Shown here: positions 586 through 64,000 of the stretch, in pieces
Layout: each line of letters begins with the position of its first letter
How positions within the stretch are numbered: position 1 is the stretch's first letter
DNA from: Drouetiella hepatica Uher 2000/2452
GTDB taxonomy: Bacteria; Cyanobacteriota; Cyanobacteriia; Elainellales; Elainellaceae
Assembly (NCBI GenBank): GCA_019359505.1
Contig: JAHHHD010000004.1
Span: forward strand, 1 to 64,000
Direction of reading: 5' to 3'
Length of the DNA stretch: 64,000 bases
Made by a program: the position numbers and the translations under genes
Notes under the pieces: generated by a model
Databases searched by the model: none
Told to the model about the DNA's origin: nothing
Seen by the model: only the letters and a program-made list of their open reading frames with translations

Positions 586-744
586 GCAACTTTAGAAACT
601 TCGTAGCCATATAGGAGGCACCGGATAATCTAGGCTGTCGCTGATTTTTGTAATGCTCCTGTAATGTTTCTGTTAGCTTTCTTCGTTATTTTAAAGCAGT
701 CAGTCAAGAATTATCTGATGACTATATTCTCTATGACCGCCGAT

Positions 745-836
745 ATAGCGCTACGCGCTTAGATCCAGTGAGTTATTTTTGAGAGCCGCGCTCTGCGCGG
801 CTCTCAAAAATAACTCGTCCCAACTCAATTGCGTAA
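745..836 (+). repeat. Family B palindromic repeat, copy B1
   Basis: A 47-bp perfect hairpin (770-816, 21-bp arms around a CTCTG centre) with family-specific flanks. ATAGCGCTACGCGC and TAGATCCAGTGAGTTA lie on the left, and TAACTCGTCC followed by CAACTCAATTGCGTA lies on the right. The same arrangement recurs at 5803-5872 (inverted), 45817-45910 (inverted) and 63559-63764. The right flank ends just upstream of the DsbD-like gene, so an apparent TTG start at 829 is repeat sequence, not gene. There is no T-tract on either side, so it is not a standard terminator. Confidence 0.85.
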
Positions 837-873
837 TGCCCTATTAACGATTGATACAGTAGCCTGCGCCTCT

Positions 874-62613: not shown

Positions 62614-63189
62614 ATGAATTTACAGAGATGGCGATCGAATCAGTCTCGTTTGCTCAAGGGCTTCAGCCTGCTGGTCGTAGGGTTAGGGCTACTGGTGCCG
62701 AGCGCCACTTCTCCTGCCTTTGCCGCTGAAAAAGTTGTGTTGAAGTATCAAATTTTCCGGCGATCGGTTGCTGTAGCTGATCTGACTCAGTTTGCTGAAA
62801 CAGGTGAAACTTCTCGTCCTTTGCGCACCTATCTGCGGATGTCGGGGCAAGATCCCGAAAAAATTCGGGAAACCTTAACTAAACCCGTTGCGGTGAATCT
62901 GGTGACACTCGACCGGGTACTAAATAGCTTTGTGGGAGATCTTGCCCTGGGTCAGCTGAGCCAATATATTTACACCTCTTCTCGCCAAGACGACGACAAG
63001 GCAATCCGAGCCGCTCTGGTGCTGTCGGCTAACGGAGACAATGAGATTAGCATTTTGGAAGTTCTGCAAAACTATCCCACCCAAGAAGTGATCCTGGATG
63101 GAGATAAAATTATTGACGCTTACGAAGAGCTACAGGGGTTAAGCAGTACCTTAGACCGCCTCCTAGAAGGGATTCGCCTGTTCAACTGA
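62614..63189 (+). CDS. DUF1400 exported protein
   Basis: A 191-residue exported protein with a signal peptide (about 1-37, ending PAFAAEK). The mature part is a DUF1400-type domain (VVLKYQIFRRSVAVADLTQFAETGETSRPLRTYL, then LDRVLNSFVGDLAL). In many cyanobacteria this domain is the N-terminal part of an alpha/beta hydrolase; here it stands alone. The start at 62614 is chosen because it gives the signal peptide and avoids repeat D2. Confidence 0.8.
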   Translation: MNLQRWRSNQSRLLKGFSLLVVGLGLLVPSATSPAFAAEKVVLKYQIFRRSVAVADLTQFAETGETSRPLRTYLRMSGQDPEKIRETLTKPVAVNLVTLDRVLNSFVGDLALGQLSQYIYTSSRQDDDKAIRAALVLSANGDNEISILEVLQNYPTQEVILDGDKIIDAYEELQGLSSTLDRLLEGIRLFN

Positions 63190-63558: not shown

Positions 63559-63764
63559 TATAGCGCTACGCGCTTAGCTCCAATGAGTTATACCGATTTA
63601 AACGAATTTGTGGGCACATCGAACCTCAGAAGGGGCTTGGCATTGCCAAGCCCGTACCGGGATCTGTCGCGGTTCCAATTCAAATTGGTATTATTTTTTG
63701 AGAGCCGCGCGGAGCGCGGCTCTCAAAAAATAATTCTTCCTAACTCAATTGCGTAGGGCTATAG
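63559..63764 (+). repeat. Family B palindromic repeat, copy B4, split by element C2
   Basis: Left flank ATAGCGCTACGCGC, TTAGCTCCAATGAGTTA (63574-63590); hairpin 63691-63733 with arms matching TTATTTTTTGAGAGCC and apex GCGGAGC (63709-63715); right flank TTCTTCCTAACTCAATTGCGTA. The 100-bp family C element interrupts it at TTA. Family A copy A7 follows directly. Confidence 0.9.
63591..63690 (+). mobile_element. Family C MITE-like element, copy C2, inserted in B4
   Basis: A 100-bp element, 97% identical to C1 at 27631-27730. It has the same terminal inverted repeats and a perfect 10-bp central hairpin (GGGCTTGGCA/TGCCAAGCCC). It is flanked by TTA on both sides (63588-63590 and 63691-63693), consistent with a 3-bp target duplication, and it splits family B copy B4. 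No coding capacity; a trans-acting transposase would be needed. Confidence 0.9.
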
Positions 63765-63854
63765 CAACCGCCAAGGCGGTTAGGACGGGGACATTGGGGG
63801 TGGGGCGCGAAGCGCCCCACCCCCAATGTCCTCAGCAAGCTGGCGACAGCTATA
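63761..63854 (+). repeat. Family A palindromic repeat, copy A7
   Basis: Complete element directly adjoining B4: ATAGCAACCGCCAAGGCGG, TTAGGACGGGGACAT, stem TGGGGGTGGGGCGC against GCGCCCCACCCCCA, apex GCGAAGC (63807-63813), ATGTCCTCAGCAAGCTGG, CGACAGCTATA. Ends CTATAGC...GCTATA are inverted copies of each other. Confidence 0.9.
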
Positions 63855-63859
63855 CCCAT

Positions 63860-64000
63860 TCAAGACCCAAACAGTTCAGGTTGGCTACCCGACAGAGCCG
63901 CCGAAATCTGACGGCAGTAGTCGTTAAAAAGGAGCGATCGCCGAAACTCCTCGGTGCGGGGTTGGGGAGCCTCGATCGCCACCTCAGCCACCACCCGCCC
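63860..64000 (-). CDS. C-terminal fragment of an unidentified protein
   Basis: The last 46 codons of a minus-strand gene that continues beyond the right edge; it reads EAPQPRTEEFRRSLLFNDY, CRQISAALSGSQPELFGS and then a stop at 63860-63862. Codon use and two GCGATCGC sites fit a real gene. The family is not recognisable from this fragment. Confidence 0.6.
   Translation of the reverse strand, partial: GRVVAEVAIEAPQPRTEEFRRSLLFNDYCRQISAALSGSQPELFGS

Follow-up and report, generated by a model that had tools for sequence, protein, structure and literature searches.

A nested insertion of small transposons in Drouetiella hepatica and an IS630-like element with a three-base target duplication

We have analysed a window of 64,000 nucleotides (positions 1 to 64,000 of contig JAHHHD010000004.1) from the cyanobacterium Drouetiella hepatica Uher 2000/2452, and found that the repeat array at 63559-63854 is a real, well preserved nested insertion of MITEs (non-autonomous transposons) of a known kind. 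The explanation that we favour, with a probability of roughly 0.88, is that the element C is a MITE that an IS630-like insertion sequence sharing its ends moves in trans, that its copy C2 landed in an already existing B repeat (B4), and that the A and B repeats are separate MITE-like sequences that duplicate TA. The insertion of small transposons in each other can be read clearly from the array but is an ordinary event, and the one thing out of the ordinary is the TNA scar, three bases long, of the IS630-like helper. In what follows the study genome is G000 (6.42 Mb, 87 contigs), and its contigs are cited as C5, C48, C52 and so on, before the colon in coordinates.

Two convergent genes enclose the array: an ORF that ends at 63189 and, on the opposite strand, an ABC-type ATPase gene that ends near 63860. 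All elements of the array lie on the forward strand. The left part of B4 (TATAGCGCTACGC...GAGTTA) occupies 63559-63590, and its first two bases (TA, 63559-63560) are probably B4's own target duplication, judging from a locus on contig C52 described below. C2, a 100-bp non-autonomous element (TACCGATTT...AAATTGGTA), follows at 63591-63690 between two copies of TTA (63588-63590 and 63691-63693), the 3-bp duplication being found family-wide, and the right part of B4, with the hairpin core GAGAGCCGCGC and the end GCGTAGGGCTATA, extends over 63694-63763. The A element A7 (63760-63854) abuts B4 and has TATA (63760-63763) in common with its end, a junction that is also found elsewhere. This layout agrees with the first-pass annotation, which had placed C2 inside a B copy at TTA, with TTA on both sides, and A7 directly after the B copy. 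It had also held that the joined B halves reconstitute an uninterrupted B, and in fact, when C2 and one TTA are removed, B4 is full-length and colinear with the B family (an intact copy for comparison is B1, 744-843, forward strand), being 93.9% identical to a consensus of 15 other near-full B copies that themselves range from 88.7 to 99.0%. Given the many A, B and C copies and the fragmentation of the assembly, recombination between repeats or misassembly, and not insertion of C2 into B4, could have produced the array, but this is highly improbable: apart from exactly one duplicated TTA, the two parts of B4 run colinearly across the junction, other C copies have the 3-bp duplication as well (see below), and the contig is 296 kb long, with the array in its middle.

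The insertion of C2 as a mobile element is in line with the features of its family, of which about 38 copies or pieces are present in G000, 35 of them with both ends. C is 100 bp long and all the copies examined appear to be intergenic, because the longest ORF across any of them has 117 codons. Its ends are TACC[G/A]ATTT...AAATTGGTA, with terminal inverted repeats of 9 bp (TACCGATTT / AAATTGGTA) that have one mismatch, and the pattern TNATACCRATTT occurs 105 times in the genome vs 3 times for the reversed control pattern, far more than chance would give. Exact 3-bp identity between both flanks was found in 20 of the 35 complete copies, with the duplication consensus TNA, while re-pairing the flanks in 20,000 random trials gave a mean of 5.9 and a maximum of 15; none of the 35 showed 4-bp identity. 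The 15 complete copies in which the exact duplication is absent have perhaps undergone mutation, later insertion or rearrangement. One of the copies without a visible duplication is C1 (27631-27730, forward strand), which is 97% identical to C2, just as the first-pass annotation had stated; because its flanks differ (TTA on the left and TGA on the right), we rejected it as a second clean insertion. Two further observations concern the structure of C. The hairpin GGGGCTTGGCATTGCCAAGCCC, at about positions 41-67 of its core, stands alone in many cyanobacterial genomes, including some without a matched full C-like element, and at C54:122021 (L020) a C copy has its own right end repeated directly after it (TTCCAATTCAAATTG...), perhaps by tandem duplication or a one-ended event.

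A precise empty site was found for the C copy at C48:3741 in the genome G003, of the same genus, where CATGA-TGA-GAAATG carries one TGA in place of the two of TGA-C-TGA, and the flanks (1 kb each) are 92% and 90% identical between the two genomes. The 35 copies with shared ends, the 3-bp duplication and this precise empty site identify C as a MITE, that is, a short, non-coding, multi-copy element with terminal inverted repeats. The loci in the window are less exact in this respect. The first-pass annotation had proposed a comparison with close relatives for an empty site with intact B4, and a metagenome-assembled relative (L144) does lack the whole array at the C2 locus, but the surrounding intergenic DNA differs too; at the C1 locus, G003 lacks both C1 and a neighbouring piece of the repeat D. 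The gaps in G003 and L144 are wider than a single element and so document absence of the repeats at both loci, not an exact empty site. Moreover, neither C nor a match to the helper transposase was detected in G003, although it has 39 matches to A/B-type repeats, and the only C-like elements in G001 (same genus) and G012 (same family) are diverged, about 71-87% identical. The absence of C from G003 and the divergence of these elements in G001 and G012 fit a recent, lineage-specific spread of C.

The first-pass annotation had also suggested that an autonomous transposon ending in TACCRATTT should be searched for, and we were able to find an insertion sequence with TACCAATTT ends. In G000, left ends with the ORF start MSRPFNIEISESEAELKK and the element start TACCAATTTAATGTGAGG are present on contigs C8, C48 and C81, and right ends, where the reading frame finishes in ...SYNFILEALFYAASH followed by a stop, on contigs C66 and C7; several contigs end inside this element, which has no complete copy in this assembly because it breaks at contig ends. 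A plasmid search revealed that the two ends belong to one insertion sequence of ~1.1 kb on Nostoc and Chroococcidiopsis plasmids, annotated there as IS630 family with two frames. Its seven complete plasmid copies (L113-L119) have the ends TACCAATT... / AAATTGGTA, and all seven are flanked by identical trinucleotides of the form TNA (TTA, TGA, TTA, TTA, TAA, TAA and TTA). The first frame contains HTH domains, and the second (orfB) scores 117-119 bits with NCBIfam NF033545 (transpos_IS630; cut-off 100) and matches Pfam DDE_3. We call this helper IS630-like because it has an IS630-type transposase but a TNA duplication, not the 2-bp TA duplication of that family. In L114-L118 the two frames meet or overlap at a run of A (TTTAAAAAAAACTC, around locus position 1580), which suggests a site of programmed translational frameshifting.

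As C and the insertion sequence are alike only over about 9-12 terminal bases, the match between them lies in the end signature and the duplication and not in longer homology. This short resemblance could also mean that a different transposase, for example of the IS5/IS1031 type, moves C, its likeness at the ends to the IS630-like element being a coincidence; G000 does contain DDE_Tnp_1 genes, and the IS1031 group duplicates TNA. We consider this unlikely, since the IS630-like elements combine the same ends with the same TNA duplication in 7/7 copies, and since a 92-bp MITE (L083; C25:277450-277547, TAA duplication) resembles the insertion sequence over longer stretches, being like both its ends with the middle missing. 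L083 is likely a direct deletion derivative of the IS630-like element. Furthermore, we looked at one DDE_Tnp_1 gene close to a TACC end, at C81, and rejected it as helper, as no matching right end was found. Mobilisation by the IS630-like element would then proceed as follows: its transposase, acting on TACC[A/G]ATTT ends, would cut out C in trans, the excised copy would be pasted into a TNA trinucleotide that becomes duplicated, and in the window a copy came down on a TTA within the pre-existing B repeat, splitting it.

C is not the only small element with such ends in this genome. We have found seven further TACC-ended MITEs of 43 to 137 bp in G000, all seven with exact TNA duplications, the longest of which (137 bp) holds an A element. 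Four of them make up the repeat D (97 bp; L082, L084, L085 and L086, at C5:420741, C37:91672, C43:14147 and C54:126170, respectively), which has a B-like hairpin core: the palindromic core GAGAGCCGCGC...GCGCGGCTCTC is common to D, with TACC-type ends and TNA, and to B, with TATAGC-type ends and TA, as if cores could have been exchanged between MITE types.

Both A and B have TATAGC ends and are more numerous than C, with hundreds of first-look candidates and a mean pairwise identity within either family of about 81%. That they duplicate TA on insertion can be read from one clear case each. At C52:50964-51160 the terminal TA of a C is occupied by a B, and without this B and one TA the TCA...TCA duplication of that C is whole again, which makes B the later arrival here and TA the sequence that it duplicated; a duplication of 4 bp (TATA) was rejected for B, as it would not restore the TCA duplication. 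At C5:99919-100055 an A interrupts a 43-bp TACC-ended MITE, of TNA type, with TA duplicated. We take A and B to be separate MITE-like repeats that insert at TA, and their TATA ends could serve as targets for each other. There are about ten B-A junctions with a TATA-like sequence common to both elements (the window, C6, C25, C35, C40 twice, C57 and C80, and in the reverse orientation C22 and C5), and it is likely that the TATA end of either repeat is a good TA target, hence the recurrent B-A tandem. Either order of insertion of A7 and B4 should have left an additional TA; none is present at their junction, so that the order is not readable in the window.

A and B also form much more stable folds than shuffled sequences do (z about -10), and one terminator-like site lies in the B core. 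Together with the position of the array between convergent genes, this could indicate that A, B and C are selected intergenic hairpins, acting as terminators or RNA stabilisers, whose mobility is secondary. We find this very unlikely: terminator-like sites are at shuffle level (1 found vs 1.1 expected), the folding of C is only moderate (z -3.4 and -1.7), C2 breaks B and yet is a clean insertion with a duplication, and relatives lack the array at this locus. A hairpin role would not conflict with mobility but come on top of it. Rfam matches over A and B were discarded as hairpin artefacts, being mostly to eukaryotic microRNA models far below gathering scores.

Returning to the insertion of C2, that it followed B4 in the window is a solid reading of the sequence. 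The first-pass annotation had gone further, concluding from the 97% identity of C1 and C2 that C moved recently and after B. The local order stands, and C is indeed fairly young (median divergence from its own consensus, 3%), but this identity does not work as a clock for the families, as order is set by nesting, and nesting runs both ways. Besides the B and A insertions into TACC-ended elements on contigs C52 and C5, C lies inside A at C5:339297 (TGA duplication) and at C54:112317 (TTC, or GAA, duplication), and this nesting in both directions means that the C set and the A/B set were active over overlapping times. Insertion order is thus local, and C2 after B4 does not date the families. The 3% median of C, set against the pairwise identity of about 81% within A or B, fits a younger burst of C, although this is a rough clock only, given that hairpin cores evolve irregularly. 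We also observed a modest clustering of C near other repeats, with 10 of 38 having an A, B or D no more than 10 bp away vs about 2.4 expected from the A/B/D share of non-coding DNA on contig C27, for which the non-coding estimate is rough. True nesting of C was seen in 3 of 38, about as random intergenic insertion would give.

Elhai et al. reportedly described, in 2008, very small mobile repeats in cyanobacterial genomes that insert into one another, and the repeats in the window resemble these small dispersed repeats by description. Among systems of known type, RUP of Streptococcus pneumoniae is a MITE of about 100 bp whose ends resemble those of an IS630-family element (IS630-Spn1), and it is clustered and inserted into other small repeats such as BOX and SPRITE (PMC3049150). 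C shares with RUP its size, IS630-family-type ends, clustering and insertion in other small repeats, but differs in sequence and host. C itself duplicates 3 bp, mostly TNA. The same article names the cyanobacterial MITE Nezha, with ISNpu3-like elements proposed as its movers (PMC3049150); C is likewise a cyanobacterial MITE with a proposed IS helper, a likeness of description. In those IS630 members that have been studied, the cyanobacterial ISY100 among them, it is the dinucleotide TA that is duplicated, a stated hallmark (PMC2170065); our helper belongs with them by its transposase family whereas both it and C depart from them in their 3-bp TNA duplication. A 3-bp duplication is found in Fot elements of the pogo group, eukaryotic relatives within IS630-Tc1-mariner (PMC7386202), although these duplicate only TAA while the helper is bacterial and the middle base of its duplication varies. 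A bacterial IS630 with TNA duplication was not found in the literature searched, ISfinder being outside that search, and it may already be known; a text search of the literature for the end sequence gave no relevant paper.

It is possible, at somewhat less than even odds, that a cyanobacterial IS630-like lineage cuts its target with a 3-bp (TNA) instead of a 2-bp (TA) stagger and drives several MITE families (C, D and others) whose likeness is limited to roughly the outermost ten bases, with TA-type MITEs present in the genome as well. In any case, we have described one genome with two sets of MITEs that leave different scars, TNA and TA, and insert into each other both ways. These two types of scar make local insertion orders readable and the helper of each set distinguishable. 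Finally, should an IS630-like helper that duplicates 3 bp be confirmed, the textbook TA hallmark of the family would need qualifying for bacteria.
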